Shown piece after piece: positions 37,219-54,163 of a stretch of 64,000 bases of DNA. This DNA comes from Sinimarinibacterium arenosum (GTDB taxonomy: Bacteria; Pseudomonadota; Gammaproteobacteria; Nevskiales; Nevskiaceae), in assembly GCF_005047655.1 (NCBI RefSeq), contig NZ_SUKF01000003.1, positions 434,001-498,000 of the forward strand. Reading direction: 5' to 3'. Each line of letters begins with the position of its first letter. Position 1 is the stretch's first letter. The translations under genes were made by a program, and so were the position numbers. Below the pieces are notes generated by a model. It was not told where the DNA came from. It ran no database searches and was given only the letters and a program-made list of their open reading frames with translations.

Positions 37219-37234
37219 TTGATAGAGTGTAAAC
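37219..37234. promoter_or_regulatory. Shared operator, site A
   Basis: TTGATA-GAG-TGTAAA followed by C, an imperfect 6-3-6 inverted repeat. It matches site B at 14 of 16 bases. It starts 24 bases upstream of the parvulin ATG (37195), exactly the spacing of site B to its minus-strand gene, and 76 bases upstream of the DUF3604 ATG. A second inverted repeat, AGTGAC/GTCACT (37236-37254), lies directly beside it. Confidence 0.6.
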
Positions 37235-37308
37235 CAGTGACTTTGGCAGTCACTTGGGGCGAGAGTCGGAACACAGAATCGTGCGGTTTGACGCGCGGCG
37301 GAGGAGCG

Positions 37309-39576
37309 ATGAACAGAGTTTTGCGGTGGGGCGTGGGGACCGTTGTGATTGCTTCGGGACTGGTGGCCCTAGCGCTCTGGGATCGCCAGGTTGCGCCGGA
37401 AACACCCGGCATCGTGGCGACCGCACGCGTCGCGACCGACAGTCTGGACGCACGGAACCGCCAGAACGGCGGCATCGAAAATGGCGGCGACGACGACCAG
37501 ATCCTGTTCGGCGACCTGCATGTGCATACGACTTTCTCGATGGATGCGTTTGTCTGGGCGCTGCCGCTGATGCAGGGCCCCGGCGCGCGGCCGCCGGCCG
37601 ATGCCTGCGACTACGCGCGCTACTGCGCGTCGCTGGATTTCTATGCGCATACCGATCACGCCGAGAGCCTGACGCCACGCCACTGGTCCATGATCAAGGA
37701 CACCGTCCGCGCCTGTAACGAAGCGGCCGGTCCGGCCGACAATCCGGACGTCGTCGCGTTCCTGGGCTGGGAATGGACGCAGATGGGCAACACGCCGGAG
37801 ACGCACTACGGCCACAAGAACGTGATCCTGCGCGATACCGCCGAAGACGCCGTGCCGACGCGCCCGATCGTTGCGGGCGGGGTACCGTTTCGGGCCATGC
37901 GCCATGATCCGCAGCCACCGATCGAGCGCGCGCTGGGACCGTATGTGGCGGACTTCGCCAACCGCAAACGCCAGTTCCTGCAGCAGGACAAGCGCAAGGA
38001 ACTGGTCGAAGTGCCCGTATGCCCGGAAGGCGTGAACACCCGCGATCTGCCGACCCAGTGCATCGAGGTGGCCAACGAACCCAAGGATCTGTTCCGCAAG
38101 CTCGACGAATGGGGCTATCCGGCGCTGGTGATTCCGCACGGCACCGCCTGGGGCTACTACACGCCGCCCGGCTCCAACTGGACCAAACAGCTGACACGAG
38201 AGCAGCACGATCCCAAGCGGCAGACCCTGATCGAGGTGTATTCCGGGCACGGTAACTCGGAGTCCTACCGCGACTGGCGCGCGATCGCCTATGACGCCGA
38301 AGGCGGCATGGTCTGCCCCGACGCGACGGACGACTATCTGCCGTGCTGCAAGCGCGCCGGACAGATCATCCGCTCGCGCTGCGATGACCCGGCGTCCGCG
38401 GACTGCGCCGCCAAGGTCACCGAGGTCGAGCAGGCCTATCTGAAAGCGGGACGCGGCGGGCAGTTGACCGTCGCCGACGTCAAGCCCGAAGACTGGCTCA
38501 ACTGCGGTCAATGCACCGACTGCTTCCTGCCGCCGCTGAATCACCGCCCGGGCAATTCGGTGCAGGCAATCATGGCGCTGAACAATCCGGCGGAACGGGA
38601 TGACGATGGCCGCGATCTGCGCTTCCGCTTCGGCTTCATCGGCTCCAGCGACAATCACGCCGCCGAGCCGGGTACCGGCTTCAAGCAGGCTGGCCGTCAC
38701 AGCAGCACCGAGTCGCGCGGCGCGGCGAACCAGATCGTGCAGCAGCGTTTTGTCGATCGCGCCAAGCCCACCGGCAATCCACAACAACCGCGACATTTCG
38801 AGCTCGGCGATCCGAACTCGCCCTTCAACTTCCTGCAGGTCAACGAGACCGAGCGACTGTCCTCGTTCCTGTACACCGGCGGACTCGCTGCAGTGCATAC
38901 CCATGGGCGCAGCCGCGAGCAGATCTGGGATGCGCTGCAGCGCAAGGAGGTCTACGGCACTTCGGGACCGCGCATGCTGCTGTGGTTCGATCTGATCGAC
39001 AACGCCGGCCAGCGCCATCCGATGGGCTCGGAACTCGAAGGCAGCGACGTACCGCATTTCCGTGTGCGCGCACTCGGCGCGTTCGAGCAGAAGCCGGGAT
39101 GTCCCGCCTGGACCGAGGCGGCGATCGGTGTGGAGCGGGTCGAACAGCTGTGCGGCGGCGAATGCTTCAATCCGGGCGACACGCGCACCCCGATCGAGCG
39201 CATCGAAGTCGTGCGCATCCGGCGCCAGACCGATCTGCATGACGATCCCGGCCCGCTGATCGAGGATCCCTGGAAAGTCATGCGTTGCAGCGACGAGGGG
39301 AATGGCTGCAGTGTCGAATTCGACGATCCGGACTATCCCGGCACCGACATTTCGGGGCAAAAACCCAGAGAAACCTTGTACTACGTCCGTGCAATCCATC
39401 GTGCCGAGCCCACCATCAACGGCGCGCAGCTGCGCTGCGACTACGACGAGCAGGGTCGTTGCGTCGCGGTGAAGCCCTGTTACGGCGACGCGCGCACGCC
39501 GCTGGACGACCAGTGTCTGGCCGAAGTCGAACACCGTGCCTGGTCCAGCCCGATTTTCCTGATGCCGCCTGGCTGA
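37309..39576 (+). CDS. DUF3604 predicted PHP-like metalloprotein, module 1
   Basis: 755 residues from ATG 37309 with ribosome site GGAGGAG. N-terminal hydrophobic segment (about 7-24) for export or anchoring. The DUF3604 region has PHP-like metal motifs: FGDLHVHT (67-74), AHTDHAE (113-119), and later GSSDNHAAEPG. Such clusters in PHP proteins bind two or three metals and hydrolyse phosphoesters, so a secreted metal-dependent hydrolase is likely but unproven. About 12 cysteines suggest disulfides in an oxidising compartment. The C-terminal end EHRAWSSPIF is shared with the paralogue at 44950. Divergent from the parvulin-HupE pair. Confidence 0.85.
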   Translation: MNRVLRWGVGTVVIASGLVALALWDRQVAPETPGIVATARVATDSLDARNRQNGGIENGGDDDQILFGDLHVHTTFSMDAFVWALPLMQGPGARPPADACDYARYCASLDFYAHTDHAESLTPRHWSMIKDTVRACNEAAGPADNPDVVAFLGWEWTQMGNTPETHYGHKNVILRDTAEDAVPTRPIVAGGVPFRAMRHDPQPPIERALGPYVADFANRKRQFLQQDKRKELVEVPVCPEGVNTRDLPTQCIEVANEPKDLFRKLDEWGYPALVIPHGTAWGYYTPPGSNWTKQLTREQHDPKRQTLIEVYSGHGNSESYRDWRAIAYDAEGGMVCPDATDDYLPCCKRAGQIIRSRCDDPASADCAAKVTEVEQAYLKAGRGGQLTVADVKPEDWLNCGQCTDCFLPPLNHRPGNSVQAIMALNNPAERDDDGRDLRFRFGFIGSSDNHAAEPGTGFKQAGRHSSTESRGAANQIVQQRFVDRAKPTGNPQQPRHFELGDPNSPFNFLQVNETERLSSFLYTGGLAAVHTHGRSREQIWDALQRKEVYGTSGPRMLLWFDLIDNAGQRHPMGSELEGSDVPHFRVRALGAFEQKPGCPAWTEAAIGVERVEQLCGGECFNPGDTRTPIERIEVVRIRRQTDLHDDPGPLIEDPWKVMRCSDEGNGCSVEFDDPDYPGTDISGQKPRETLYYVRAIHRAEPTINGAQLRCDYDEQGRCVAVKPCYGDARTPLDDQCLAEVEHRAWSSPIFLMPPG

Positions 39577-39585
39577 GTGTCCGTC

Positions 39586-39647: not shown

Positions 39648-40880
39648 ATGACTGATACGCCGCTGCAGATTGTTGTTTTTGGCGCCACCAGTTTCGTCGG
39701 CCAGATCCTGAGCCGCTATCTGTTCAACCGCTACGGCAACAACGGTGAGCTGCGCTGGGCCATTGCCGGTCGTTCGCACGCCAAGCTGGCGCAATTGCGC
39801 TCTTCGCTGGGTGCCGGAGCGGAATCGCTGCCGATCATCGTCGCCGACGCCGCCGACGAATCTGCGCTGGAAGCGATGTGCGCCAGCACGCGCGTGGTTG
39901 TTTCCACGGTTGGCCCCTATGCGCTGTACGGCTCGCCACTGGTCGGCGTCTGCGCGCACAGCGGCACCGACTATTGCGATCTGACCGGCGAGGTGCAATG
40001 GATCCGGCGCATGATCGATGCCCATGAAGCCACCGCCCGCGCCAGCGGCGCGCGCATCGTGCATTGCTGCGGCTTCGACTCGGTGCCCTCCGACATGGGC
40101 GTGCATTTTCTGCAACGCGAATCGATGCGAGTGCATGGCCAGCCGTGCACACGGGTGAAACTTCGGATCAAGGCGATGCGTGGCGGCGCCTCCGGTGGCA
40201 CCGTCGCCAGTCTGATGAACGTGGTCCGCGAGATTTCCGCCGACCCGGAAGTCCGCAAGCTGATGGTCGATCCTTTCGCGGTCTGTCCGGACCGGGGCAA
40301 GGGACGCCCGAAGCAGCCTGAGGTCCGTTTCTCCGAATTCGATCCAGATTGCGGCAGCTGGCTCGGTCCATTTGTGATGGCGGGGATCAACACCCGCATC
40401 GTCCACCGCAGCAACGCGCTGTCCGGTGACGCCTATGGCCATGACTTTGTCTACGACGAGGCGATGATGACCGGCCCGGGCTCCAAGGGACGCATGGCGG
40501 CGGCCGGTATCGCGCTGGGTTTGGGCGGATTCGTCGCAGCTGCCATGTTGCCGCCGGCACGCTGGGTGCTGGAACGTTATGTCGTGCCGAAGCCTGGTGA
40601 GGGCCCGAGTCCCGAGGCGCAGGCCAATGGGTTCTACGATTTCCGTTTCTACGGTCACACCGCCGATGGCCAGACCGTCAAGGTCAAGGTCACCGGCGAC
40701 CGCGATCCGGGCTATGGCTCGACCGCCAAGATCCTCGGCGAAGCGGCGGCATGCCTGGCTCGGGACATCTCCAAGCAGGACTGTGTGGGCGGAATCTGGA
40801 CCCCGGCGACAGCCATGGGTGATCGTCTGATTGAGCGTTTGCGCGCGCATGCAGGGCTCACCTTCACGGTGCTCGACTGA
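39648..40880 (+). CDS. Saccharopine dehydrogenase-like/trans-enoyl reductase family
   Basis: 410 residues from ATG 39648. N-terminal Rossmann fold with VVFGATSFVGQILSRYL and the following RLxxL-type helix; then CDLTGEVQWIRRMI and HCCGFDSVPSDMG motifs typical of the saccharopine-dehydrogenase-like group that includes mycobacterial trans-acting enoyl reductase (Rv2449c-like). A hydrophobic segment lies at about 285-305. In mycobacteria this group acts in lipid synthesis, which would fit the lipid-type genes nearby, but substrate assignment is inference. Preceded by a long inverted repeat ending at the start codon. Confidence 0.85.
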   Translation: MTDTPLQIVVFGATSFVGQILSRYLFNRYGNNGELRWAIAGRSHAKLAQLRSSLGAGAESLPIIVADAADESALEAMCASTRVVVSTVGPYALYGSPLVGVCAHSGTDYCDLTGEVQWIRRMIDAHEATARASGARIVHCCGFDSVPSDMGVHFLQRESMRVHGQPCTRVKLRIKAMRGGASGGTVASLMNVVREISADPEVRKLMVDPFAVCPDRGKGRPKQPEVRFSEFDPDCGSWLGPFVMAGINTRIVHRSNALSGDAYGHDFVYDEAMMTGPGSKGRMAAAGIALGLGGFVAAAMLPPARWVLERYVVPKPGEGPSPEAQANGFYDFRFYGHTADGQTVKVKVTGDRDPGYGSTAKILGEAAACLARDISKQDCVGGIWTPATAMGDRLIERLRAHAGLTFTVLD

Positions 40881-40923
40881 GTCCACAGCAACGCCGCACG
40901 AAACCTAAAACGGGAAGCATTGA

Positions 40924-41877
40924 ATGGCCGCAGGCACACTGCTGACGCTGCTGGACGACATCGCGACCTTGCTCGACGATGTCAGTGTGATGACCAAGGT
41001 CGCGGCCAAGAAAACCGCGGGGGTTCTGGGCGACGATCTGGCGCTGAACGCGCAACAGGTTGCCGGGGTCAAGGCCGATCGCGAACTGCCGGTGGTCTGG
41101 GCGGTAGCCAAGGGATCACTGCGCAACAAGTTGATCCTCGTGCCCAGTGCGCTGCTGATCAGTGCCGTCGCACCGTGGGCGATCACGCCGTTGCTGATGC
41201 TGGGTGGCGCATTCCTGTGTTTCGAGGGCTTCGAGAAAATCGCGCATCGCTGGCTGCATCCGCAGGATGAGGCTCAAAACGAGCACAACGAACATCTGCG
41301 GGCCCTGGCCGATCCGCAGATCGATCTGGTTGCCTACGAACGCGACAAGATCCGCGGGGCAGTGCGCACAGATTTCATTCTCTCGGCGGAGATCGTCGTC
41401 ATCACGCTGGGCACCGTTGCGGACGCCGCGTTTGGCTCACGTGTGGCGGTGCTGTCGGGGGTCGCGGTCATCATGACGATTGGCGTCTACGGACTGGTCG
41501 CCGGCATCGTCAAGCTCGACGACGCCGGGCTGTATCTGAGCCAGCGTGCGGGCCAGCTGACGCAACGTATCGGTCGCGCGCTGCTGGGGCTGGCGCCGAG
41601 ACTGATGCAGGCACTGTCGGTGGCCGGAACGGCCGCGATGTTCCTGGTGGGCGGCGGCATCCTCGCGCATGGCGTGCCGCTGCTGCATCACGCCGTGGAG
41701 GCGCTCACGCACAGCTTGCACGGCATCCCGACCGTCGGTGGCATGCTCGCCGCGGTGGCGCCGACCTTGTTGAATGCACTGCTGGGCGTCGCCGCCGGGG
41801 CGCTGGTGACACTGCTGGTGCTGGGTGGGGAACGCCTGCGCGCTGCCCGCCGCACTTCGGCCTCGGCGGACACGTAG
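40924..41877 (+). CDS. DUF808/YedI family membrane protein
   Basis: 317 residues. Begins with the highly conserved [20 protein letters not shown] and [15 protein letters not shown] stretches of DUF808 (E. coli YedI), followed by about six membrane helices. Function unknown in the family. It lies 43 bases after the saccharopine-dehydrogenase-like gene and ends at a strong hairpin shared with the convergent MBL-fold gene. Confidence 0.92.
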
Positions 41878-41882
41878 ATTCT

Positions 41883-41948: not shown

Positions 41949-43031
41949 TCAGGGCTTCAACACGCTAACTTGCGCGGGTGTGCCATCCAGCGGCAGTTCG
42001 ATCAGGGTGCCGTCCTGCGCCAGCACCACGCCCTTGCTGCGGATCTCGGCCACGCCTCGCAGAAACGCCATTTCGGCAATCCGGTTCGGTGGCGGCGGGG
42101 TCAGGTGATACATCAGCAACAGCGGCACGCCGGCTTCGTTGGCGACTTCTGCGGCTTCAACCGGGCTGGTGTGATAGCTCGGAATGTCCGCCATGACCTT
42201 GGCATAGCGGGTGCGGCCCAGATCGGCGGCGGCCGCCTGAATCTGTCCCACCATCTGCTGGTTCTGCGCTTCATGTGCCAGCAGGTCGGCGCCCTTGGCG
42301 GCGCGGATCAGGTTGGCGTCCTTGATGGTGTCACCGCTGATCACCAGTGAGCGACCTTTGTAGTCGAAGCGATAGCCGACCGCCGGAGAGATCGGCGTGT
42401 GCGTGACCGGAAACACGCTGACCTTGAGGTCGCCGTCGACGAATGCCTCGGTCATGCTGCCGTCCGCAGACAGGCTCAAGGTATGCGCCTGCATCAAGCC
42501 ATCGTCCGGCGACAGCATCTCGGCGCCGTGGTGTGCCACGCGATAGCCGCGATCCAGTGCGTAGGCCTGCTGGAATCCGTCAACCACCTGCTCGACGCCG
42601 GTCGGTCCGTAGACCTGCAGCGGCGCGCCACGGCCGGCAACCCAGGTCTGCAGGTTGAATTCGCCCAGTTCGCCGATGTGATCGGAATGAAAGTGGGTCA
42701 GGAACACGCCGCCGATACGATCGCCCGGAATACGCAGCAGCGCCAGCCGGTTCCAGGAGCCGGGGCCGGTATCGACGACATAGAACTTGCCGCCGGCGAT
42801 CACCGTTAGACACGGGCGGGCGCGATCCGGATCCGGAAACGGCGATGAACTGCCGCAGACCAGCAGGCGCAAGGCGTCGTCAGCGAACAGCGGCTGCCGG
42901 TCTGTGGTCGACAGACGCGAACGGATGACCTTGTCGATCAGAACGTCCTGCACTGGCGGGATCTGCAACACGCCGATGCTGAGCACAATCAGCAACGCCA
43001 ATGCGAAAAACGCCTTGATACCCGTCTGCAT
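41949..43031 (-). CDS. MBL-fold metallo-hydrolase, membrane-anchored or exported
   Basis: 360 residues from ATG 43031. N-terminal hydrophobic segment (about 6-25) followed by a metallo-beta-lactamase fold close to the RNase Z/arylsulfatase side of the superfamily: CGSSSPFPDPDRARPCL, the metal motif LTHFHSDHIGE, YGPTGVEQVV, and VISGDT. Export argues against an RNA substrate and for an esterase or sulfatase-like activity. It is divergent from the second parvulin-HupE-DUF3604 module, and operator site B lies 24 bases upstream of its ATG. Confidence 0.85.
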   Translation of the reverse strand: MQTGIKAFFALALLIVLSIGVLQIPPVQDVLIDKVIRSRLSTTDRQPLFADDALRLLVCGSSSPFPDPDRARPCLTVIAGGKFYVVDTGPGSWNRLALLRIPGDRIGGVFLTHFHSDHIGELGEFNLQTWVAGRGAPLQVYGPTGVEQVVDGFQQAYALDRGYRVAHHGAEMLSPDDGLMQAHTLSLSADGSMTEAFVDGDLKVSVFPVTHTPISPAVGYRFDYKGRSLVISGDTIKDANLIRAAKGADLLAHEAQNQQMVGQIQAAAADLGRTRYAKVMADIPSYHTSPVEAAEVANEAGVPLLLMYHLTPPPPNRIAEMAFLRGVAEIRSKGVVLAQDGTLIELPLDGTPAQVSVLKP

Positions 43032-43115: not shown

Positions 43116-43907
43116 ATGCGCCTACAAAAATTCATCGACGCGCTGAGCCGCCTGCAGCACCGTCACGCGCCATTATTGTTTCTTGCGCTCGGCGCTGCGC
43201 TGTTTGCCGCAGATATCCTGCACCGCTCGACACCGCCGCTGGTCGCGCCGGATGCCGCCGCAGGGCAGGGTGCAACGCGCTGGCTTGAGGATGAAGTGCT
43301 GTACCGGGAAGCCCTTGCGCGTGGACTCGATGACGGCGACCTGATTGTACGGCGACGCCTGGCGCAGAAGATGCGCCTGCTGCTGGAGACTGGGGTCGAT
43401 GTCGCCGAGCCGGATGCGAACACACTCCAACACTGGATCGACACGCACGCCGAGCGCTATGGCGGCGTTACGCAGCTGTCGATGGACCATGTTTTCCTGT
43501 CCCGCGCACGACATGACACTGAGCTCGAGCAGGACGCAGAGCGTGTTGCTGCACGCCTGCGTGCAGACAACGACGTGGGTGACTTTGCCGCGCTCAGCGA
43601 TCCGCACCCGGCGTCGACCCGTATCGACAACGCCAGCAGTCACGATACCGAGCGTCTGTTCGGCAAGGCGCTGGCGCAGCAGCTTGCGCAGCTGCCGGAG
43701 GGTGGCTGGCAAGGACCGCTGTCGTCGCCGTTGGGCCTGCATCTCGTCCGTATCCGCTCACGCCAGCTGCAGACGCCGGACTACGCTGCGGTTCAGGCGC
43801 GCGCGCAGCGCGACTATCTGATCGAACAACGTCGTTTGCACACGCAGGACGCGCTGAAAGCCCTGATGACGCGGTATGGCGTCGCTGACGCCGGTGCGTC
43901 GTCATGA
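43116..43907 (+). CDS. Parvulin-like (PPIC) peptidyl-prolyl isomerase, module 2
   Basis: 263 residues from ATG 43116, which has a GGGGGA ribosome site; an ATG at 43083 lacks one and falls in the promoter. N-terminal membrane helix (about 16-36, PLLFLALGAALFAADIL), SurA-like helical region, then a parvulin-type domain at about 125-230 (TQLSMDHVFLSRARHD and GPLSSPLGLHLVRIRSR), better preserved than in module 1. Overlaps the HupE-like gene (ATGA). Likely helps fold an exported partner, plausibly the DUF3604 protein. Confidence 0.8.
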   Translation: MRLQKFIDALSRLQHRHAPLLFLALGAALFAADILHRSTPPLVAPDAAAGQGATRWLEDEVLYREALARGLDDGDLIVRRRLAQKMRLLLETGVDVAEPDANTLQHWIDTHAERYGGVTQLSMDHVFLSRARHDTELEQDAERVAARLRADNDVGDFAALSDPHPASTRIDNASSHDTERLFGKALAQQLAQLPEGGWQGPLSSPLGLHLVRIRSRQLQTPDYAAVQARAQRDYLIEQRRLHTQDALKALMTRYGVADAGASS

Positions 43908-44929
43908 TCGAGTCGTCACGGCGCCGAAAATTCCCTCATGGCTTCGTTGCGGCCGGACTGTTGCTGACTCTGCTCAGCACTGCGGCTGCGGGCCATGCGA
44001 TGAACAGCGCCCAGTGGCGTCTGGTTCAACGCGACACGCAGACCTGGGACAGCCGCTTGCGCCTGCCGGAGGACTTCGAAGGACGCCTGCTGTCGCTGCA
44101 TCCGCAGTGGCCGGCGGACTGCGAGCGCCGCGGTGAACCACATCTGCAGCCTGCCGATGAAGGTACGCTGATGTCATGGACGCTGGACTGCCCGCAAGGA
44201 CTGCAGGGTGCCCTGGGCCTGAGCGGCTTCAGCGTGCAGCTGCCGGACGCGATCCTGCTGGTCGAACCCTTGCATGGCGCGCCGCGCTACGCAGTGCTGT
44301 CGGCGACGCGCCCACAGTGGCGCATGGACACACCGCCCGAAGCACCGCCGGTGCCGCACTATCTGGGGCTCGGCGTCGAGCACATCCTGCTCGGCCCCGA
44401 TCATCTGCTGTTCGTGCTGGGGCTTTGGGCGCTGTGGCGCCGCGGCGGGCGCAGTGTGCGTGCGCTGGTCGGCACCCTGACCGCGTTTACCGCGGCGCAC
44501 TCGATCACGCTGGCCGGAGCTGCCCTCGGTCATTGGTCGCTGCCGTCGGGGGCCGTCGAAGCCAGCATCGCAGCGTCGATCCTGCTGCTGGCAATTGATC
44601 TGGCGTTCCACCCGCCGACCGCAGGCGCAGCTGCACCCAGCGGCGTGTCACGCCATCTGTCCGTGTTTGCGTTCGGCTTCGGCTTGCTGCACGGCTTCGG
44701 CTTCGCCGGCGCGCTGGCGCAGATCGGTCTGCCCGAGCATGCGCAGGTCTGGGCGCTGGCCGCATTCAATCTCGGCGTCGAGGCGGGCCAGCTGCTGTTC
44801 GTGCTGGCGTTGATGCTGCTGGCGCACGCGCTGCGCCCGTTGCAGCGCTGGGCGCCGGTGGCGCTGTGTCTCTACGGCAGCGTCGCCGCGTACTGGTTGA
44901 TCCAGCGCAGTGCGACGGTTTTTACATAA
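43904..44929 (+). CDS. HupE/UreJ-family membrane protein, module 2
   Basis: 341 residues, signal peptide at about 12-32, an exported domain to about 145, then about six or seven hydrophobic segments. Shares with the module 1 protein the motifs EHILLGPDHLLFVLG, AHSITLAGAALG and LLHGFGFAGALAQ, which carry the conserved histidines. ATG overlaps the parvulin stop. DUF3604 follows after 20 bases. Metal handling is likely from the family; which metal is unknown. Confidence 0.87.
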   Translation: MIESSRRRKFPHGFVAAGLLLTLLSTAAAGHAMNSAQWRLVQRDTQTWDSRLRLPEDFEGRLLSLHPQWPADCERRGEPHLQPADEGTLMSWTLDCPQGLQGALGLSGFSVQLPDAILLVEPLHGAPRYAVLSATRPQWRMDTPPEAPPVPHYLGLGVEHILLGPDHLLFVLGLWALWRRGGRSVRALVGTLTAFTAAHSITLAGAALGHWSLPSGAVEASIAASILLLAIDLAFHPPTAGAAAPSGVSRHLSVFAFGFGLLHGFGFAGALAQIGLPEHAQVWALAAFNLGVEAGQLLFVLALMLLAHALRPLQRWAPVALCLYGSVAAYWLIQRSATVFT

Positions 44930-44949: not shown

Positions 44950-47211
44950 ATGAGTGTTCGTATACAGATTGCCACACCGCTGGCTGCACTGATGCTGGCA
45001 GCCTGCGGTGCGTCGACGACGCCGGAGAATCTGCCCACAGCGCCGGGGCAGCCGGGAAGCGTTGCCGGGGATTGCGGACCCCTGGTCGCCGGGCAGAAGC
45101 AGGCGCTGTTCGGCGATCTGCACGTGCATACCAGCGATTCCTTCGATACCTACTTCTTCAACTCCATCAACGGTCCACGCGACGCGATCCGCTTCGCCAA
45201 GGGCGAGCCTGCGGGCTATCCGGCAGGCGATGACGATCCGAATACGCCCGACCACTACGAGCAGCTCGACCGCCCGCTGGACTTCGTCGCCATCACCGAC
45301 CACGCCGAATTTCTCGGCGCGTTCAAGACTCTGTGCGAACTGAACGGTACCGTGCCGGCCGGCACCAATCCCGCCTGCGAGATCATCGGCAATAGCATCC
45401 GCGGTGACATTCGCGCCTTTGTCGAAGGCCGCACGACGCCGTTCCAGATCGCGCTGCAGGCACTGCTGGCGGAGAGCCCGACCGATCGCCCGGCCTGGGC
45501 CGAGCAGCAGCGCATCACCGACGAGGAATACCAGCCGTGCACCTTCAGCACCCTGCATGGTTACGAGTACAGCTCCAACAAGCGCGGCCAGATGCTGCAC
45601 CGGAATGTGATCTTCCGTGGTGACGCCGATCAGGTGCCGGACGTCGTCTACGGATCGGCTACCGCGCTGACCGGCATTGACGACCGCAATGCCAATGACG
45701 AGTGGATGCTGTTCGATCATCTGCAGGACAACTGCGGCGGCATGCCGGACTGTCGCGTGCTGACGATTCCGCACAGCGCCAATCTGTCGGACGGTCGCTT
45801 CTTCATGCCACGCGATTTCGCTACCGGGCTGCCGCCGGGCCGCGATGGCGTCGCACTGACGCAGGCCGACGCAGAACTGCGTCGAGGCTATGACCGCGTG
45901 CTGGAGATCTATCAGCACAAGGGCGCGTCCGAATGCGCCGCCGGTCTTGAAGGCAACTACCTTGAAGGCGAGGAGACGCACTGCGACTTCGAGCTGACCA
46001 AGAACGTCTGCGCAGGGCAGCCCGACGATCCGCCCGGCTGCGCGCGTTATTGCACCGGAGACCCGGCACACGACCCGAGCTTCTGCTCACTGCGGCAGGC
46101 GCCGACCTACCTGACGCGGATCTGCGAAACCGTCGGTCCGGACGGCGCCTCAGGCCCCGCCGACAACTGCACTGCACCGCTGGACTATTTCCGCAACGCC
46201 ATGGCGGAGGGGTTCACGCTGCGCGCGCTCCTCGGCGTCAATCCGTATCGGCAAGGCATCATCGCCTCGACCGACACCCATAACGGCACGCCCGGCATGG
46301 TGCGCGAACGTCGCTATCCGGGACACGGTGGCGTGCTCGAGGACGAGCCCAAGGATCACCTCGGTCAGTGGGACTGCGACAACAGCAACCGCGCGATCAA
46401 TCCGGAAGACCCGGCCGATCCCGACAACTGCACCAACCGCGTGTTTCTCGATCGCGCACGCGGCTTCGGCTCCGGCGGACTGGCCGGAGTCTGGACCGCG
46501 GAAAACACGCGCGAGCAGATCTGGGATGCGGTCTATCGCGGCGAAACATTCGGCACATCCGGACCGCGCATCCGCATCCGCATGCAATCGAGCTGGACGC
46601 CGCCGCCGGACGACATCTGCGCACGGCTGGCCCAGGGTGGCGACAGCGTCACCTCCACCGATGGCGCCATCATGGGCGGCGATCTGCCGCAGCCTCCGGC
46701 AGGGGCCACCGCACCGTACCTCACCGTGTGGGCGATACAAGATCCCGGTGGCGACCAACCCGGACTACCGCTTCAGGGCCTGGACGTCATCAAGGGCACG
46801 CTCAACGCCAGTGGCGAACCCAAGGTGCACGTCTACGAAAACGTGGCAAAGACGCCGCATCCGGTCGAGCAACCGGCCGCTGACTGTTCGGTGGCACCGG
46901 GCAATCATCCTGAGCAGTTCTGCGTGACCTGGCAGGATCCGGATTTCCACGCTGACCGCGACGCTTACTGGTATGCCCGCGTGCGCGAGATTCCGAGTTG
47001 CCGCTGGAGCACTTATCTCTGCGTCAGCTCCGGGGTCGACTGTGCCGCTCTGAGCCCGGCCAACGGCATCTTTCCGGACGACACCGGCTGGCATGGCTAT
47101 GAAGGCTGCTGCCGCATTGAGGGCGAGCCGGGCTCGTTCCACGGCAGCAACATCTTCTCCACGCTCGAAGAACGTGCATGGGCGTCGCCGGTGTGGTTCG
47201 AACATCCCTGA
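44950..47211 (+). CDS. DUF3604 predicted PHP-like lipoprotein, module 2
   Basis: 753 residues from ATG 44950 with ribosome site GGGGGAGCGG. A lipobox LAAC (16-19) predicts a lipid-anchored Cys19, unlike the module 1 paralogue. PHP-like motifs: FGDLHVHT (54-61), ITDHAE (115-120) and STDTHNGTPG in the middle; the conserved C-terminal segment LEERAWASPVW closes the protein. Many cysteines (for example CARYCTGDPAHDPSFC) imply disulfides. Length is almost equal to the paralogue. A periplasmic or surface metal-dependent hydrolase is the best guess. The SDR gene follows after 59 bases. Confidence 0.87.
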   Translation: MSVRIQIATPLAALMLAACGASTTPENLPTAPGQPGSVAGDCGPLVAGQKQALFGDLHVHTSDSFDTYFFNSINGPRDAIRFAKGEPAGYPAGDDDPNTPDHYEQLDRPLDFVAITDHAEFLGAFKTLCELNGTVPAGTNPACEIIGNSIRGDIRAFVEGRTTPFQIALQALLAESPTDRPAWAEQQRITDEEYQPCTFSTLHGYEYSSNKRGQMLHRNVIFRGDADQVPDVVYGSATALTGIDDRNANDEWMLFDHLQDNCGGMPDCRVLTIPHSANLSDGRFFMPRDFATGLPPGRDGVALTQADAELRRGYDRVLEIYQHKGASECAAGLEGNYLEGEETHCDFELTKNVCAGQPDDPPGCARYCTGDPAHDPSFCSLRQAPTYLTRICETVGPDGASGPADNCTAPLDYFRNAMAEGFTLRALLGVNPYRQGIIASTDTHNGTPGMVRERRYPGHGGVLEDEPKDHLGQWDCDNSNRAINPEDPADPDNCTNRVFLDRARGFGSGGLAGVWTAENTREQIWDAVYRGETFGTSGPRIRIRMQSSWTPPPDDICARLAQGGDSVTSTDGAIMGGDLPQPPAGATAPYLTVWAIQDPGGDQPGLPLQGLDVIKGTLNASGEPKVHVYENVAKTPHPVEQPAADCSVAPGNHPEQFCVTWQDPDFHADRDAYWYARVREIPSCRWSTYLCVSSGVDCAALSPANGIFPDDTGWHGYEGCCRIEGEPGSFHGSNIFSTLEERAWASPVWFEHP

Positions 47212-47270: not shown

Positions 47271-48131
47271 ATGATCAATAATTTCACCGACAAGCTGTGC
47301 GTGATCACCGGCGGCTCCAGCGGCATCGGCCTGGCCATCGCCGAGGCCCTGGCCGGTGAGCGCGCGCGCCTGCTGTTGGTTGCGCGCGACAGCGCCGCAC
47401 TGCAGACCGCGGCCGAACATCTGCGCAAGCTTGGCGCTGCCGAAGTGCAGACGCTCAGTGCCGATGTCAGCCGCGACGACGACATGGCGCGGCTGGGTCC
47501 GGCGATTGCTCAGATGGGCGAGGCTGCCGATCTGCTGGTGCAGAGTGCTGGCATCGTCAGCGGTGGACTGGTGCATGAGGTGCCGCTGGACGAATGGCGC
47601 CGCCTGCACGACATCAATGTGCTGGGCGTGGTGCGCGGGATCGATGCGGTGCTGCCCGCCATGCTCGCGCGTGCGCAGCGCAGCGGCGAGGGCGGACACA
47701 TCGTCAACATCGCTTCGGCCGCCGGTCTGCTGGGTTTCCCGGGGCTGGCCGCCTACGGCGCCACAAAGGCTGCGGTGGTCGGTCTGACCGAAAGCCTGCG
47801 CGGCGAAATCGCCAGCAGCGGAATCGGCGTCACCGCTGTGTGCCCCGGTTTCGTCCGCACGCCGATTGCCAGCAAGCTGCAACTGTTCGGCCGCATGAAC
47901 AATCCACGCACGCAGCGCGGCGTGCAGCAGTGGTTCGAACGCAACAAGCTCGATGCCAATGTGGTCGCGCGGCGTACGCTCAACGCGATTCGCAAAAACC
48001 GCCGGCTGGTTGTTGTCGGTCGCGACGCCGAATCCGGCTACTGGACCAAGCGCGTCGCACCCGGCGTGCTCGAGCGCTTTCTGTCAAAAATGACGGCGTC
48101 GATGGGCCGGCGTGCGGCATCACCAAACTGA
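47271..48131 (+). CDS. Short-chain dehydrogenase/reductase
   Basis: 286 residues from ATG 47271. Cofactor motif TGGSSGIG at 13-20, catalytic YGATKAA in the middle, and a substrate-binding C-terminal extension of about 60 residues, as in SDRs annotated for lipid or steroid substrates. Follows the DUF3604 gene on the same strand and probably ends its transcript; a hairpin separates it from the convergent DsbA-like gene. Confidence 0.92.
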   Translation: MINNFTDKLCVITGGSSGIGLAIAEALAGERARLLLVARDSAALQTAAEHLRKLGAAEVQTLSADVSRDDDMARLGPAIAQMGEAADLLVQSAGIVSGGLVHEVPLDEWRRLHDINVLGVVRGIDAVLPAMLARAQRSGEGGHIVNIASAAGLLGFPGLAAYGATKAAVVGLTESLRGEIASSGIGVTAVCPGFVRTPIASKLQLFGRMNNPRTQRGVQQWFERNKLDANVVARRTLNAIRKNRRLVVVGRDAESGYWTKRVAPGVLERFLSKMTASMGRRAASPN

Positions 48132-48185: not shown

Positions 48186-49460
48186 TCAAACGGATTGCGT
48201 CAGCCGGTCCACCATCCACAAACGATCCTGACCCCAGGTCGTGAAGTCACCGAGACGGAAGCTGGGCACGCCCCAGAGGCCGGCCGCGAACAGGGCCTCG
48301 CGATTCGCTTCGGCGCGCGTGGTGTCGATGCCCTGCGCCAGCGTCTGCTGCGCGGCCGTCCAATCGAGTCCGCTGCGTTCGATCACGCTGCGCAACACGT
48401 CGTCGCGGCGGGCATCCAGACCTTCGGCCCAGACGCTCTGGCCGGCAATGGCGCAGTAGCGCAGCTGGGTGTCGGCATCGGCGGTGTAGGGGAAGACCGT
48501 CAGCAGACGCAGCACGCCGTCGCCGACCGGATCGTGGATGCGGCCGAACGGAATCTGCTGGACATCGGCGCAGCGCTTGACGTCACGCACGATGTACAGA
48601 CGCTTGTTGCGCGGCACCGGCAGTCCGCGCATGACCATCGGCAGCACCGGACGCACCTGCAGCGTTTGCAGCTGACCACGCGCGCGTCGGCGCAACAATT
48701 CAACGGCCGCCAGATACGAGTAGGGGCTGCGGAAGCTGAACCAGAATTCCAGTGGGGTGCCGATCGGCGCCGGCGGCTCGGGCAGTTGCTGCGGATCGAG
48801 CGGCGACAGTGGCGCGGCATTGCGCAATGCACCTGCAGCGATCAGGCGTGTATAGAGAATGTCGAGCCGGTCCAGCGCCCAGAACCACTCGCCGTGGTAC
48901 TGCCACATCGCCGGAAGATAGTGTCCCAGCTTGCGTCGACGCTCTGCGTTGGCTTTGAGCAGCGCGGCCAGCGAATCACGATGCAGTGCGGGGCCTGTCA
49001 AACCTGCGTTCGACGCGATCGCAGTCATCGCATCGAGTTCGGCTTGGAGAAATGCCTCGGCGTTGCTGCCTGCAGCCGCCAGATGCGCCGCGACCGCATC
49101 GTGCCGTGTCGGTGGCACCGCAACCGGCGCCGGTAGCCCATGACACGGCGCGATGCGGCGGGCGTCCAGCGACGCGAACGCACGCTGCTTGTCCTGTTCA
49201 GGATAGGCACTGACATCCGGGGCGGGCACCAGCCGGATCTGCAAAGGAACCTGCAGGCGCGGCAGCAGCGTGCGCGCCATCGACGCACACAGCTGCGAAT
49301 GCGCGTCACCAACCTCGTAGTACAGCTCCAGCGTCTTGCCGGCCCGCAGGCGCGCGATCGGGTCACGCGAGCTGGCAATACGCTCTGCGACTCGGGACTG
49401 CAGGCTCGGCCGTAGGCCGGCACGGGGCAGGGTCTTCATTTCCGGCATGGGGTCGGGCAT
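48186..49460 (-). CDS. Double DsbA/GST-kappa-like thioredoxin-fold protein
   Basis: 424 residues, about twice the usual length of a 2-hydroxychromene-2-carboxylate isomerase/GST-kappa protein. Residues about 40-215 form a divergent DsbA-like half (LELYYEVGDAHSQLC); residues about 230-424 are a clearer copy (LEFWFSFRSPYSYLAAVELL, and AAGLWGVPSFRLGDFTTWG near the end). The FRSPYSYL serine and WGVPSF cis-proline match glutathione-dependent isomerases. ATG with an AGGACA ribosome site. Divergent from the long GST-like genes, with operator site C in between. Confidence 0.82.
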   Translation of the reverse strand: MPDPMPEMKTLPRAGLRPSLQSRVAERIASSRDPIARLRAGKTLELYYEVGDAHSQLCASMARTLLPRLQVPLQIRLVPAPDVSAYPEQDKQRAFASLDARRIAPCHGLPAPVAVPPTRHDAVAAHLAAAGSNAEAFLQAELDAMTAIASNAGLTGPALHRDSLAALLKANAERRRKLGHYLPAMWQYHGEWFWALDRLDILYTRLIAAGALRNAAPLSPLDPQQLPEPPAPIGTPLEFWFSFRSPYSYLAAVELLRRRARGQLQTLQVRPVLPMVMRGLPVPRNKRLYIVRDVKRCADVQQIPFGRIHDPVGDGVLRLLTVFPYTADADTQLRYCAIAGQSVWAEGLDARRDDVLRSVIERSGLDWTAAQQTLAQGIDTTRAEANREALFAAGLWGVPSFRLGDFTTWGQDRLWMVDRLTQSV

Positions 49461-49562: not shown

Positions 49563-49631
49563 GGGCGTGCGACAGCGTCTGCATAACCATATCGGCACTG
49601 CGTGGCCGATCGCGTGCATCACGGAGCCTGC

Positions 49632-50744
49632 ATGAGCAAACCTTACATCCTCTACGGCTGGCACCTGTCGTTCTTCAGTGGCAAGACGCGCGCCTATCTG
49701 CGCTACAAGAACGTGCCGTTCGAAGATCGCGAAGTCGATGCGCTGACCCTGATGCGCAGAATTCCGCAGAAGACCGGCGCCACGGTGATGCCGGTCGTGG
49801 TCACGCCCGAAGGCGAGTGGCTGCAGGACACCAAGCACATCTGCGACGTGCTGGAGCAACGTTTTCGCGACCATCCGGTCCTGCCGCCGACGCCGCGTCA
49901 GGCATTCGCCGCGCAGCTGCTGGAGCTGTGGGCGGACGAATGGTGGATTCCGCCGGCCATGCATTACCGCTGGGTCTATCCGGAAAACTATGCGCTGTTC
50001 GAGCGCGATGCCGGACGCGCATTACTGCCGGGCTTTCCCGGCTTCCTGCAGAAACGCCTTGCTGCCTATGTCGCCGGCACCCTGCGCGGCTATCTGCCGT
50101 CGGTCGGGGTGGTGCCGGATCAGTACGCCGTGATGGAGCGCTGGACTGAGAACATGCTCGACGTGCTCGAGGCACACTTCGCGCGCCTGCCGTATCTGTT
50201 CGGTGCGCGTCCGTCGATCGCCGATTTTGCGCTGCTGGGGCCGATGTACGGACACCTGAACCGGGACCCGATGCCGAAGCGCACCCTGATCGATCCGCGA
50301 CCGCAGCTGCAGGCCTGGGTCGAGCGCATGAATGCGCCGCCGCCCGAACCTGCGGGCGACTTTCTTGCAGATGACGCGATCCCCGACACCCTGCAGCAGG
50401 TGTTCGATGCGGTGTTCAGCGAGTTCTATCCGATGCTCGAAGGCATCCGGGACGAAGTACGGAAGTTCGCGCCGAAGCTGTCGCCGCAACGGTCACGGCT
50501 GCCGCGCACGCTGGGGCCGATCACGTTTCCGATGGGTGAGGGACGGTTTCAGCGCCGGGCGATGCCGTATACCTTGTGGATGAAGCAGCGCATCCTCGAC
50601 GATTATCGCAGCCGCGCGCCAGAGCATCGCACGGCTATCGAAAGCTGGCTGCAGCAACAGGGCGCGGCCTCGGTGACGGGCTTCGATCCCGGTCCCCGGC
50701 TGCGTCGCAAGGGTCTGCACGTCTGCCTGGATACACACGGATAA
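49632..50744 (+). CDS. Long GST-like protein, first of tandem pair
   Basis: 370 residues from ATG 49632; normal GSTs have about 200-220. The N-terminal thioredoxin-like domain reads YILYGWHLSFFSGKTRAYLR and has VMPVVVTPEGEWLQDTKHIC; the C-terminal helical domain includes LFGARPSIADFALLGPMYG. About 130 extra residues follow at the C-terminus with no recognised fold. The gene after it is a paralogue with the same layout, 5 bases downstream. A glutathione-dependent transferase, isomerase or ether cleavage enzyme is possible. Confidence 0.82.
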   Translation: MSKPYILYGWHLSFFSGKTRAYLRYKNVPFEDREVDALTLMRRIPQKTGATVMPVVVTPEGEWLQDTKHICDVLEQRFRDHPVLPPTPRQAFAAQLLELWADEWWIPPAMHYRWVYPENYALFERDAGRALLPGFPGFLQKRLAAYVAGTLRGYLPSVGVVPDQYAVMERWTENMLDVLEAHFARLPYLFGARPSIADFALLGPMYGHLNRDPMPKRTLIDPRPQLQAWVERMNAPPPEPAGDFLADDAIPDTLQQVFDAVFSEFYPMLEGIRDEVRKFAPKLSPQRSRLPRTLGPITFPMGEGRFQRRAMPYTLWMKQRILDDYRSRAPEHRTAIESWLQQQGAASVTGFDPGPRLRRKGLHVCLDTHG

Positions 50745-50749
50745 GACCC

Positions 50750-51895
50750 ATGTCCCAGACCACGCCGCCGTATCGGATGTACCTGTCGGACGTGTCGTAC
50801 TTCAGCGGCAAGCTGGAGGGCGCGCTGCGTGCCAAGCGCATCGACTACGCGCGTGTCTGCATCACGCCGGACATCCTGTTGCGCGAGGTGCTGCCGAACA
50901 CCGGCTGGATGAAAGTACCGGCGCTGCGGCGCGACGATGGCCTGTGGCTCAACGACACCACGCCGCTGCTGCGTTGGCTCGACGAAGCGCACCCGCAACG
51001 ACGGTTGATTCCGGAAGATCCGTATCGCGCATTTCTGTCCACGCTGATCGAGGACTACTGCGACGAATGGCAATGGCGGCCGGCAATGTTCTGGCGCTGG
51101 GCGTGGCCGGACAATGCGCGCTATCTGGGCTCGCGCCTGGGCGCCGAATTGTCGAAGGGGACACCGCACCCGGCCTGGGCCATGGGGCTGTACTTCCGCA
51201 AGCGCCAGCAACGTATTTTCCTGCGCGGAGACGGTGTTCGCCGCAGCAACTTCGATGCGATCGCCGCGCTGTACCCGCAGGCGCTGGGCTGGCTGGAATC
51301 ACTGCTGGCGAATCGCCGCTACTTGCTCGGCGACCGACCGAGCCTGGTCGATATCGCGTGGTTCGGCCCGATGTTCCGCCATTATGCGCAGGACCCCAGA
51401 CCGGCAGTATTGATGGCCGAACACGCGCCCAATGTCTGGGCCTGGGTCACGCGTCTGTGGCGCAGCGGCGCGGAAGACTGGTCAGCGTCCGAGCTGGAGG
51501 ATTTCTCGGATCGCGCCTGGAATCCGATGCTGGCCGATCTGGGCGCCGCCTACCTGCCGTACCTGCATGACAACGCAGCCGCAGTGGCCGGTGCTCGCGA
51601 CCGGTTCTCCGGCCGCTACGGCGGCATCGACTATCCCGATTTGCCTGCGGTGCAGTATCGCGCGCGCTGTCTGAAAACCTTGCAGCATGCCTATGCCGCA
51701 CTGCCTGATGAAGTGCGTGCGCGCGTCGACACGCGCCTGCAGGGCACAGGCATCAGCAAGGCCTTGCAGCCGCCAAGTGCGGCACAGAACCTCGCATTGA
51801 TCGACTCTGCCGTGGCCAGCGCTTCAGCGCCGATCAGCCTGACGCAGCGCCTGCGCTATTACGCCGCCGGCACACCGTGGGACCGCGCGCCGTAG
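50750..51895 (+). CDS. Long GST-like protein, second of tandem pair
   Basis: 381 residues from ATG 50750, paralogous to the preceding gene: MYLSDVSYFSGKLEGALRAK aligns with its N-terminus and LLGDRPSLVDIAWFGPMFRH with its helical domain. The same C-terminal extension is present. Both share the aromatic-rich stretch YCDEWQWRPAMFWRWAWP / WADEWWIPPAMHYRWVYP, unusual for GSTs and perhaps lining a hydrophobic site. It ends 10 bases from the convergent DUF1302 gene. Confidence 0.82.
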   Translation: MSQTTPPYRMYLSDVSYFSGKLEGALRAKRIDYARVCITPDILLREVLPNTGWMKVPALRRDDGLWLNDTTPLLRWLDEAHPQRRLIPEDPYRAFLSTLIEDYCDEWQWRPAMFWRWAWPDNARYLGSRLGAELSKGTPHPAWAMGLYFRKRQQRIFLRGDGVRRSNFDAIAALYPQALGWLESLLANRRYLLGDRPSLVDIAWFGPMFRHYAQDPRPAVLMAEHAPNVWAWVTRLWRSGAEDWSASELEDFSDRAWNPMLADLGAAYLPYLHDNAAAVAGARDRFSGRYGGIDYPDLPAVQYRARCLKTLQHAYAALPDEVRARVDTRLQGTGISKALQPPSAAQNLALIDSAVASASAPISLTQRLRYYAAGTPWDRAP

Positions 51896-51905
51896 CATCG
51901 GGTGA

Positions 51906-54050
51906 TCAGAACACGTAGGCGACGAAGGCCGATACGTTGTCGCGGTCACTCAGGCGATGTCGAGTACCGCCGCCGGCGAACATCTGATAGGTCAGCCCCA
52001 CAGTCCAGTCGGACTCGAACTCGGCGGTCAGATTGGCGATCAGCACACGGCGACCGTCGATGAAGTTGTAGACCGGAGCCGGCGAGGTGCCGCCGATGTC
52101 GTGCAGCCAGATGAACGTGGGATAGAGCGTGACGCCAGGGACATCAAGATAGGTCATGCGCACCAGGCTGCGGTAGCCGTACGACAGGTCGTCTGCGAAG
52201 CCCCGCGTCATCTGCGTCGGGTTGATGTGTCGAGTGTCCGGCTGGCCATCGGCACTGCCGGAGCCGTCTGCGCCTGCCGACGGATGGGTGCGATCCCCGG
52301 CGCCTTCGAAATACAGCTTGCCGCGCGCCGGCATGTCATGAACCTTGAGTCCAGCAACCTCGAACACAAACAGGATCTGATCGGCGCCGACCGGGTTGTC
52401 GGCAAAGGTGCGCAATGCGGTCATCGTCACCTGCGACACCTGCTGCCGTTCGTAACCGGGAACATAGTCGCCGGCCGCGACGCTGACGCCGCGGTACTGC
52501 GACAGGTAATCCGGCACTGCGTTGTTCTCGCCCGGCAGGATGAAGGTGGCGCCGCTTGGAAGCTGCGCCTGCAGCGCGGTCTGCAGACTCTGCAGCGGTT
52601 GCGCCAGGTTTGCCGGCAATTGCGACAGCAGCGCCGGATCACTGACGGTACCCAGGCCGATCGGAATGTCCTCGGCCGGAAACGCCGGACCCAGCAGCGT
52701 GAACAATACATCGGACTGCAGCACCTGCAGCGGCTGGTTCGGCCGGTACGCCCATTCGCCGGACAGCGCCCAATCGCCCACGTTGGTATTGAAGCTCACA
52801 CCGTAGAGGTCGATGTCTTCCGGATATTCGAGGAACAACTGCAGCGTATCGACGGGCAGGGGCTCCAGGCCGACCGGATTGAATGCAGCGTTAAAACCCT
52901 GGCAGGCTGCGAATGCGCCGGCGAAACCGGGCACCGTGGCATTCCGCGTACAGCTGGCATTGGCCGCGTAGCCGCTAAGCAGCGGATAGCGGCTGTGATA
53001 GCGCAGTGCGTGAAACGCCAGCTCGGTACCGTGATTGAGCCAGTCCGCCAGATAGTTCAGGCGAAAGCCGTACTGGCCGCTGTCTCGCGGTGCGCCAACT
53101 TCGTCGTCAGAGATATAGACCGTACGCGTGGCCTGCGACACCAACGACGCCAGCCCGGCCGGCCGAAACTGACGGTCCGGATCTTCGTTGAAATTGCCGA
53201 AACCAAGGATCGCGTATTCACCGCCGCCGGCGATGTCACTGAACGACAGCAGGCTGCCACTGGCGGGGAGCCGCGCACCGCGCCACTGCAGCTGGTACAG
53301 CGCTTCCAGCGCGAGCGAATCGGTCAGGGTGAGGCTTGCCACCGCCAGCGGTACCGCGAGCTGCAGCTGACTCGGCTCGGAGCCCGGCATGCCCAGCACC
53401 GGCGCATCGATCGGGCTGATTTCGGACAAGGTATTGAACTGCACCAGATTCGCTTCACCCCAGTTGAGCACCTGATTGCCCAGCTTCAGCAGCAGTTCGC
53501 GCTCACCCAGCTGAATGCTGCCGGAAACAAATATGTTGCCGAGCCGATAGCCCGACGCGAACAGCGCTTCAGGCTCGCCGCCGCGCGGCGTGCGCGCGGG
53601 CTGGAAGCGCTGGTCGTCGTGCGTTTCGTCAAAGTTGGCATTGACCAGATCGTGGAATAGCAGCGCCGATGCCTGGAATTGCCAACTGTCCCAGACCAGT
53701 TCGAGCTTGGGGCGAACCTGCAGGATGCCGGCGGTCGGATCCCAGCGATCGTAGTTGAGATTGCCGTTGTCCTCGTTGACACCGGAGAACGCACCGACGG
53801 CATCGACCAGCCGCTGATTGGGCGCCGGGTCGCCGGCCTGCGACTGGCAGTCATCAGGTGCGCACAGATCCTGTTGTCCGGGCACTGCCAGCTTCGCAAT
53901 CACGCGATTGTCGCGGCCTTCGACGCGCACCGCGGCGCCTGCAGAAATACGCGTGTTCAGTGCTCCGGCGACCGGGCCGACGTCGAACTCAATTGCCAAT
54001 GCCGGCGCACTCAACAGGCTGCACAGGACTACGAAACACCATCTCCCCAT
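51906..54050 (-). CDS. DUF1302 outer-membrane protein
   Basis: 714 residues from ATG 54050 (ribosome site GGAGAG; in-frame ATG 54065 lacks one). Signal peptide about 1-21 (MGRWCFVVLCSLLSAPALA), then a beta-strand-rich barrel-like protein ending in phenylalanine (AFVAYVF), as expected of outer-membrane barrels. DUF1302 proteins occur beside DUF1329 proteins in proteobacteria that grow on hydrophobic compounds; a role in uptake of such compounds has been suggested for the pair but not shown here. Divergent from DUF1329 with operator site D between. Confidence 0.9.
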   Translation of the reverse strand: MGRWCFVVLCSLLSAPALAIEFDVGPVAGALNTRISAGAAVRVEGRDNRVIAKLAVPGQQDLCAPDDCQSQAGDPAPNQRLVDAVGAFSGVNEDNGNLNYDRWDPTAGILQVRPKLELVWDSWQFQASALLFHDLVNANFDETHDDQRFQPARTPRGGEPEALFASGYRLGNIFVSGSIQLGERELLLKLGNQVLNWGEANLVQFNTLSEISPIDAPVLGMPGSEPSQLQLAVPLAVASLTLTDSLALEALYQLQWRGARLPASGSLLSFSDIAGGGEYAILGFGNFNEDPDRQFRPAGLASLVSQATRTVYISDDEVGAPRDSGQYGFRLNYLADWLNHGTELAFHALRYHSRYPLLSGYAANASCTRNATVPGFAGAFAACQGFNAAFNPVGLEPLPVDTLQLFLEYPEDIDLYGVSFNTNVGDWALSGEWAYRPNQPLQVLQSDVLFTLLGPAFPAEDIPIGLGTVSDPALLSQLPANLAQPLQSLQTALQAQLPSGATFILPGENNAVPDYLSQYRGVSVAAGDYVPGYERQQVSQVTMTALRTFADNPVGADQILFVFEVAGLKVHDMPARGKLYFEGAGDRTHPSAGADGSGSADGQPDTRHINPTQMTRGFADDLSYGYRSLVRMTYLDVPGVTLYPTFIWLHDIGGTSPAPVYNFIDGRRVLIANLTAEFESDWTVGLTYQMFAGGGTRHRLSDRDNVSAFVAYVF

Positions 54051-54140
54051 CGCGCTCTCCACCATCGTGCGCCGGTCTGTTGGCCGGTTGTTGTGATCTT
54101 TGTTATCACCGTCAAGACGGATGTCTGCCTTGACGAGAGT

Positions 54141-54163
54141 TTTACAGTGTGTAAAGTTTACAC
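54141..54163. promoter_or_regulatory. Shared operator, site D
   Basis: TTTACA-GTG-TGTAAA (54141-54155) is a perfect 6-3-6 inverted repeat. One base on follows another TTTACAC (54157-54163), so three half-sites lie in a row and TGTAAA-G-TTTACA forms a second overlapping palindrome. It lies 91 bases upstream of the DUF1302 ATG and 46 bases upstream of the DUF1329 ATG. Confidence 0.65.

Follow-up and report, generated by a model that had tools for sequence, protein, structure and literature searches.

Candidate operators of a local TetR-family regulon in four divergent gaps of a Sinimarinibacterium arenosum gene cluster

The gene cluster and its inverted repeats

The DNA considered here, referred to as the window, is a stretch of 64,000 nucleotides from Sinimarinibacterium arenosum (Nevskiaceae; genome G000 of this analysis), corresponding to positions 434,001 to 498,000 of contig NZ_SUKF01000003.1 (C18:434001-498000). 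It contains a 17-kb cluster in which four related 15-base inverted repeats, designated A to D, all lie in gaps between divergent genes (Table 1). Comparison of sequences makes it very probable that these are the operators of one local regulon under a nearby TetR-family repressor. A first-pass annotation had reported the four 15-mers and their location between divergent genes, and both the coordinates and the gaps are confirmed, the start codons that bound the gaps being those chosen in this analysis; the presence of an operator-like pattern at the four sites is a confirmed observation. Sites A and B each start at a distance of 24 bases from a minus-strand ATG (37195 and 43031, respectively), as had also been stated, an equality that hinges on the chosen start codons. 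The cluster includes two related modules, each with a SurA/PPIC-like protein, a HupE/UreJ_2 membrane protein, and a DUF3604 protein; site A splits the first, and the second runs rightward from B.

Table 1. Sites, gaps, and genes of the cluster in window numbering; positions above 64,000 lie beyond the window end
Feature	Position	Strand	Remarks
HupE/UreJ_2 membrane protein	35212..36375	-	after SurA-like gene; Pfam; start codon uncertain
SurA/PPIC-like protein	36359..37195	-	first gene left of A; Pfam SurA_N_3, below cut-off
Gap around A	36359-37195(-) / 37309(+)		
Operator A, TTGATA-GAG-TGTAAA	37219..37233	.	weakest of the four copies
DUF3604 protein a	37309..39576	+	first gene right of A; Pfam
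Saccharopine-dehydrogenase-like protein	39648..40880	+	Pfam
DUF808 protein	40924..41877	+	ends run right of A; Pfam
MBL-fold hydrolase	41949..43031	-	left of B; Pfam
Gap around B	41949-43031(-) / 43116(+)		
Operator B, TTGACA-CAG-TGTAAA	43055..43069	.	pattern and promoter scans
PPIC-type (Rotamase_2) protein	43116..43907	+	first gene right of B; Pfam
HupE/UreJ_2 membrane protein	43904..44929	+	Pfam
DUF3604 protein b	44950..47211	+	lipobox-like LAAC near N terminus; PHP-like invariant His/Asp; Pfam
Short-chain dehydrogenase (SDR)	47271..48131	+	Pfam
DsbA-like protein	48186..49460	-	left of C; Pfam
Gap around C	48186-49460(-) / 49632(+)		
Operator C, TTTACA-GCA-TGTAAA	49540..49554	.	pattern and promoter scans; 10-genome footprint
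Long GST-like protein 1 (GST1)	49632..50744	+	right of C; Pfam
Long GST-like protein 2 (GST2)	50750..51895	+	Pfam
DUF1302 protein	51906..54065	-	left of D; Pfam
Gap around D	51906-54065(-) / 54209(+)		
Operator D, TTTACA-GTG-TGTAAA	54141..54155	.	pattern and promoter scans; 10-genome footprint
DUF1329 (LolA-like) protein	54209..55609	+	right of D; Pfam
TetR-family gene	64820-65461 (L071:1820-2461)	-	about 820 bases past window end
Operator E, TTGTCGATCTGTAAA (TTGTC-N4-TGTAAA)	65473-65487		11 bases before TetR ATG; beyond window end

Uniqueness and promoter context of the sites

At zero or one mismatch, the pattern TTKAYANNNTGTAAA matches only A to D in the window, compared with a mean of 0.06 matches in dinucleotide shuffles, in agreement with the first-pass statement that the window holds no further copy. 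The genome-wide scan that had been suggested as a check gave a similar picture: exact TTKAYA-N3-TGTAAA is found only at A to D across the 4,544,824 bases (24 contigs) of the genome, so that the motif is confined to the cluster and not randomly placed. When TTTACA-N3-TGTAAA is allowed up to 2 mismatches, 16 places are found in the genome, with B, C, and D at 0-1 and the other 13, A included, at 2; at the same threshold, 22 places are matched by the reversed form used as a control, so that 2-mismatch places on their own represent background. Site A is unremarkable by mismatch count alone and is backed by its location and by a counterpart in a related locus (L035). Next to D there is a decayed second copy, which lies 16 bases further on and runs from 54157. 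Site D likewise consists of two 15-mers 16 bases apart in the related genomes G047 (L024:11072-11102) and G048 (L027:15339-15369); in G048 the second copy is intact, whereas one of the two G047 copies carries a single mismatch.

A promoter scan of positions 37150-54250 predicted three sigma-70-like promoters, and sites B, C, and D are each overlapped by one of them. B lies between TTGATA (43049) and AATAGT, and the TTGACA with which B itself starts can also be read as a -35 element, as originally proposed. C lies between a minus-strand TTTAAA and TATACT and shares one base with the plus-strand TATAAT (49535-49540) that the first reading had associated with it. At D, 5 bases separate TTGACG (54130-54135) from the start of the site, which runs into TAAAGT (54152-54157).

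Conservation in the Nevskiaceae

In a pattern search, TTTACA-N3-TGTAAA was present in 12 of 58 genomes of the family, at least two copies being found in 10 of these 12; neighboring copies on the same contig are 2.7 to 10 kb apart, except for the 16-base pair at D in G048. The lack of conservation that the first-pass annotation had named as a ground for refutation was not observed, as the sites recur in matching intergenic gaps of the relatives: D between the DUF1302 and DUF1329 genes, C between the DsbA-like and GST genes, and B ahead of the PPIC-HupE-DUF3604b run, where G044 (L128) has the identical B 15-mer in the corresponding divergent gap between MBL and PPIC-DUF3604. Site A has a counterpart, TTTACACTCTGTCAA, ahead of the DUF3604a homologue in L035 and a 2-mismatch counterpart in L074. 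The gene tables of the relatives are our own ORF picks, some of which are over-extended or missed. In G009, a one-mismatch place is found at C28:30961.

Footprints at C and D, each from 10 genomes, show arms that are 98-99% conserved and flanks that are 51-67% conserved, but the genomes were picked for having a site in the gap, so that the figure for the arms is in part a result of this choice. This does not apply to a fixed TTGAC, which ends 6 bases ahead of D in all 10 genomes compared. Both footprints left out G001, G002, G039, G053, and G054.

It might be argued that the likeness of the four sites is due to chance or is a by-product of promoter hexamers, since TTGACA and TTTACA resemble -35 elements and an additional exact palindrome (TTTACAGGATGTAAA) is present in G047 (L026:3250), where it occupies the spacer that separates 23S rRNA from a tRNA gene. 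The latter copy is probably itself a chance occurrence, and it means that a lone palindrome is no proof of membership in the regulon; a near-identical twin is found in G050 (L033:10528). Against an origin of A to D by chance stand the shuffle expectation in the window, the lack of an exact match elsewhere in the genome, the palindromic character of the sites, and their recurrence at matching gaps in relatives. Chance resemblance was rejected on the basis of the window shuffles and genome scans and is considered exceedingly improbable.

A TetR-family gene linked to the sites

In G053 and G054, a TetR-family gene is located within the site-bearing cluster, and both orthologues carry a TetR_N domain. 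A search of the 58 family genomes with this type of protein gave 14 clear orthologues (E<1e-39), and the match in the S. arenosum genome (C18:498835-499407, minus strand) corresponds to a gene located about 820 bases beyond the window end. The first-pass annotation had held that the regulator is not encoded in the window and that a TetR-type dimer would fit the sites. The location of this gene agrees with the former, and the only regulator found with the sites across lineages is indeed a TetR-family protein. The encoded protein of 213 aa scores 38.5 bits for the TetR_N domain, for which the cut-off is 24, and its predicted model is all-helical with nine helices (pLDDT 85), in keeping with a TetR fold that includes a C-terminal ligand/dimer domain. 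A fold search with this model gave 190 solved chains at E<=0.001, of which the 50 listed are titled as TetR-type or other transcription regulators, the nearest solved structure being FasR. No plasmid-borne copies of the regulator were found at E<=1e-20.

The distribution of the gene parallels that of the sites. The exact palindrome is present in 11 of the 14 TetR-bearing genomes and in 1 of the 44 others (one-sided Fisher test, 1.8e-8, uncorrected for kinship), and TTKACA-N3-TGTAAA is present in all 14 compared with 5/44. The proposal that the genes of the cluster form one regulon is supported by this co-occurrence, a statistical association, together with the recurrence of the sites, and from the sequence comparisons the regulator missing from the window is most likely the TetR-family protein encoded just past its end.

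The first-pass annotation had also suggested looking for a regulator gene that carries the same site. A TetR gene was found, but the site at its own promoter, operator E, is a weaker one. Among the 14 TetR orthologues, 9, the present one included, have the form TTGTC-N4-YGTAAM starting 25-31 bases ahead of the automatically assigned start codon, and a looser TTGTCACCATGTCAT starts 34 bases ahead of that of a tenth; the other four have other sites or no clear ones. A relaxed pattern, TTKWYNNNNTGTAAA, devised after the TetR promoter had been seen, has six matches genome-wide, namely sites A to D, the TetR promoter, and a position within a sensor-kinase-like gene.

Occurrence beyond the family

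The TetR alignment was used to scan named genomes, with bait patterns that included a stretch read here as the recognition helix. This search, which relied on the protein alone, returned 28 loci: 10 from Nevskiaceae, the family of Solimonas and Sinimarinibacterium, 14 of Limnobacter type, 1 from Zhongshania, and 3 labeled as Actinomycetes or Acidobacteria. These loci are not independent, and two of them probably represent a single gene, since the contigs of L105 and L106 end within the TetR gene in an identical stretch of 149 bases; this reduces the number to at most 27. Limnobacter belongs to the Betaproteobacteria, and some of the Limnobacter-type loci come from metagenome-assembled genomes (MAGs) titled Burkholderiales or Gammaproteobacteria. 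At up to 1 mismatch, the site is found in the retrieved DNA of 24 of the 28 loci, with 37 sites in all as compared with 0.45 in shuffles and 4 with a reversed-half control. The four loci lacking such a site are L096 and L097, which have a 2-mismatch site upstream of TetR; L105, which starts inside the TetR gene; and L084, where TetR is by a contig end, a different contig of the genome (G055) carrying the sites.

The Limnobacter-type loci have a site directly upstream of TetR in every case (12 at <=1 mismatch and 2 at 2 mismatches), and in 13 of the 14, the exception being L097, a divergent run GST1-SDR-PPIC-HupE-DUF3604-MBL faces the TetR gene; the SDR in each of these 13 runs was detected by one or both of two methods. 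In 12 of the 14, a second, unrelated TetR-like gene adjoins the first (for example, L088:10635-11378, with TetR_N just under the cut-off).

In the loci from Actinomycetes- and Acidobacteria-labeled MAGs (L104 and L106), tblastn with 12 window proteins gave no match, but an operator is present with the TetR gene on one side and a divergent gene on the other; the latter encodes an MMPL transporter according to Pfam in L106 and a similar protein, as judged by eye, in L104. The retention of TetR and operator in the absence of the cluster proteins argues against mere hitch-hiking. The coordinates of the TetR/operator/MMPL-type arrangement are L106:7782-10185, L105:1-546, and L104:1-956; the proteins of L104 and L105 appear alike, so that one taxon label may be a binning error. 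With the TetR protein of the Actinomycetes-labeled MAG as query, none of 197 other genomes of its order had a match at E<=1e-15. In a sample of the class, TetR was found at E<=1e-25 in 1 of 273 genomes besides that of S. arenosum, and in this genome an MBL gene is preceded by a one-mismatch site.

Identity of the regulator

The sites might be true operators of another regulator, such as the AraC-type (57956) or LysR-type (61325) protein, a tandem second TetR, or an unlinked factor. The AraC-type, LysR-type, and second TetR genes are all nearby, and linkage alone singles out none of them. However, among the two best matches per gene, the AraC and LysR genes (including a LysR at 5761) have only weak ones in the regions of the relatives, at 30% for AraC in L101 and 28-34% for LysR types in L076, L077, and L127, whereas the TetR chosen here keeps an operator beside it in Nevskiaceae, Limnobacter, and L104/L106. 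Control by another regulator therefore appears quite improbable. The AraC- and LysR-type neighbors were rejected as the regulator, their relatives being weak and scattered in the regions compared. The second TetR of Limnobacter was likewise set aside as a candidate; a comparison at E<=1e-8 with the window and with loci of the S. arenosum genome and the family gave no relative of it, the tandem TetR of S. arenosum included.

The palindrome in the rRNA spacer is one of several observations that weigh against a common regulon under the linked TetR. G009, a genome that is 79% complete, has a site beside its GST1 gene but no TetR was found in it, and TTGACA-form sites are present in G002, G014, G036, and G040, with no TetR at the E cut-off used; G002 has a clear cluster with a DUF1302 protein on a short contig (L125), and G036 has DUF1302/DUF1329-like genes near its site. 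Although several relatives have the TetR gene adjoining that for DUF1329, a distance of about 10.7 kb separates it from site D here, and a second TetR-family gene lies directly upstream in the same direction (65566-66249 in window numbering, L071:2566-3249, minus strand, TetR_N 44.7 bits). As the TetR gene and the sites are linked in one cluster, their co-occurrence alone could be hitch-hiking. Operator E differs from the palindrome at 3 positions; Zhongshania, whose sites are given little weight, has the motif at close to background level, with 15 places genome-wide at <=1 mismatch and 7 for the control; and shuffles give a mean of 2.5 promoter-like sites, so that only the positions of the predicted promoters are telling.

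Proposed mode of regulation

The computed uniqueness and conservation of the sites, their co-occurrence with TetR, and their overlap with promoters can be combined in a model in which a TetR dimer would bind TTTACA-N3-TGTAAA, tolerating TTGACA in one arm. Placed over the promoter elements at B, C, and D, the dimer would keep RNA polymerase off the divergent promoters, and binding at the weaker copy in the promoter of its own gene would limit the amount of TetR. A small hydrophobic ligand, probably the pathway substrate or an intermediate, would release the protein; this is plausible by analogy because FasR, the nearest fold, senses long acyl-CoAs, as described in the available part of its report (PMC7382501). 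With the operon boundaries predicted here, release would turn on together the SurA-like/HupE, DUF3604a/saccharopine-dehydrogenase-like/DUF808, and PPIC/HupE/DUF3604b/SDR units, GST1/GST2, and the MBL, DsbA-like, DUF1302, and DUF1329 genes.

The same TetR could instead be an activator or a dual regulator of this regulon, and that FasR is described as an activator in the same portion of the report weighs in this direction. The position of the operator between promoter hexamers at B and C, and from the spacer into the second hexamer at D, fits blocking, and the TTGAC at a fixed distance before D points the same way. Activation or dual control is hence regarded as quite improbable, and repression by blocking RNA polymerase as the most likely mode from the arrangement of the sequences.

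Possible function and significance of the predicted regulon

The DUF3604 proteins have invariant His/Asp residues, resembling the metal-binding ones of PHP-type metallohydrolases, in 17 sequences, H58/H60 (HxH), H118, H275, and D442/H444 (DxH), although the predicted model is poor (pLDDT 61) and the best fold match, a PHP domain, has an E of only 0.045. GST1 matches the isoprene-epoxide GST model weakly, far under the cut-off; when used as bait across the named genomes, it matched 7 stretches, none of which was confirmed. A sulfatase and an amidohydrolase are found nearby in the Limnobacter locus L088, and G053 has a sulfatase and a sulfatase-modifying-factor-like gene at a site of its own. 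According to the part of each report that was available, DUF1302/DUF1329 proteins are essential for the use of Tween 20 in Pseudomonas putida (PMC10866462), and in aromatic-degrading Betaproteobacteria, DUF1302 and PF07044 genes have been assigned to aromatic-compound regulons (PMC6449761).

We infer from the gene content that the cluster handles a hydrophobic compound through envelope and glutathione chemistry. More tentatively, it might be an envelope-centered system for the catabolism of a hydrophobic compound, perhaps an isoprenoid or a sulfated one, in which DUF1302/DUF1329 would mediate passage through the outer membrane; DUF3604 and MBL proteins, with a sulfatase and its activating enzyme in some lineages, periplasmic hydrolysis; and two to three GSTs, the DsbA-like protein, and the SDR, glutathione-linked breakdown, with one TetR sensor shared by Nevskiaceae and Limnobacter. 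G048 has a RoxA-like cytochrome (rubber oxygenase type; L027:1131-3557) about 6 kb from its DsbA/GST site. Strong RoxA-like matches (E<1e-15) occur in 12 of the 14 TetR genomes and 10 of the 44 others (Fisher test, 4e-5, uncorrected for kinship and post hoc), and a link of RoxA-like proteins with the regulon is kept only as a lead.

As a local TetR regulon, the system is of an ordinary type with respect to its regulator. No description of it was found among the open-licence papers listed, as judged from titles and abstract openings, and what seems new is the regulon itself and its tying together of uncharacterised genes in Gamma- and Betaproteobacteria. Genes of unknown function (the two DUF3604 modules, DUF1302, DUF1329, DUF808, HupE/UreJ_2, and the long GSTs) would become a single unit that can be tested, its regulator being named and its DNA sites defined. 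TetR also offers a handle on the substrate, as a compound that releases it from D is likely to be the compound that the cluster handles, and the regulator-operator pair could be used as a marker of the pathway in other genomes.

Comparison with known systems

The DUF1302/DUF1329 pair at site D has counterparts in AmeA/AmeB of the tetrapartite AmeABCD monoterpene exporter of Castellaniella defragrans (PMC6394551) and in PP_0765/PP_0766 of P. putida (PMC10866462), but no TetR operator is named for either in the available text of these reports. No Pfam match for an AmeC-like periplasmic protein or an RND pump was obtained among the 34 window proteins scanned, the remainder of the window and the genome not having been searched for them.

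The regulator shares its fold with FasR, BkaR, and KstR, lipid-related TetR regulators of mycobacteria, of which FasR ranks first by both profile and fold. However, the protein is only about 20% identical to FasR, which is from other bacteria and has other targets, and scores 38.6 bits with the FasR model NF053731, below the cut-off of 330. A different likeness is seen with the operators of the TetR-type Pseudomonas repressors TtgR and PmeR. These operators likewise have the half-sites TTTACA and TGTAA in the portion of the report available (PMC4538802), but the halves are 12 bases apart, as counted from the oligonucleotides given there, compared with 3 in A to D.

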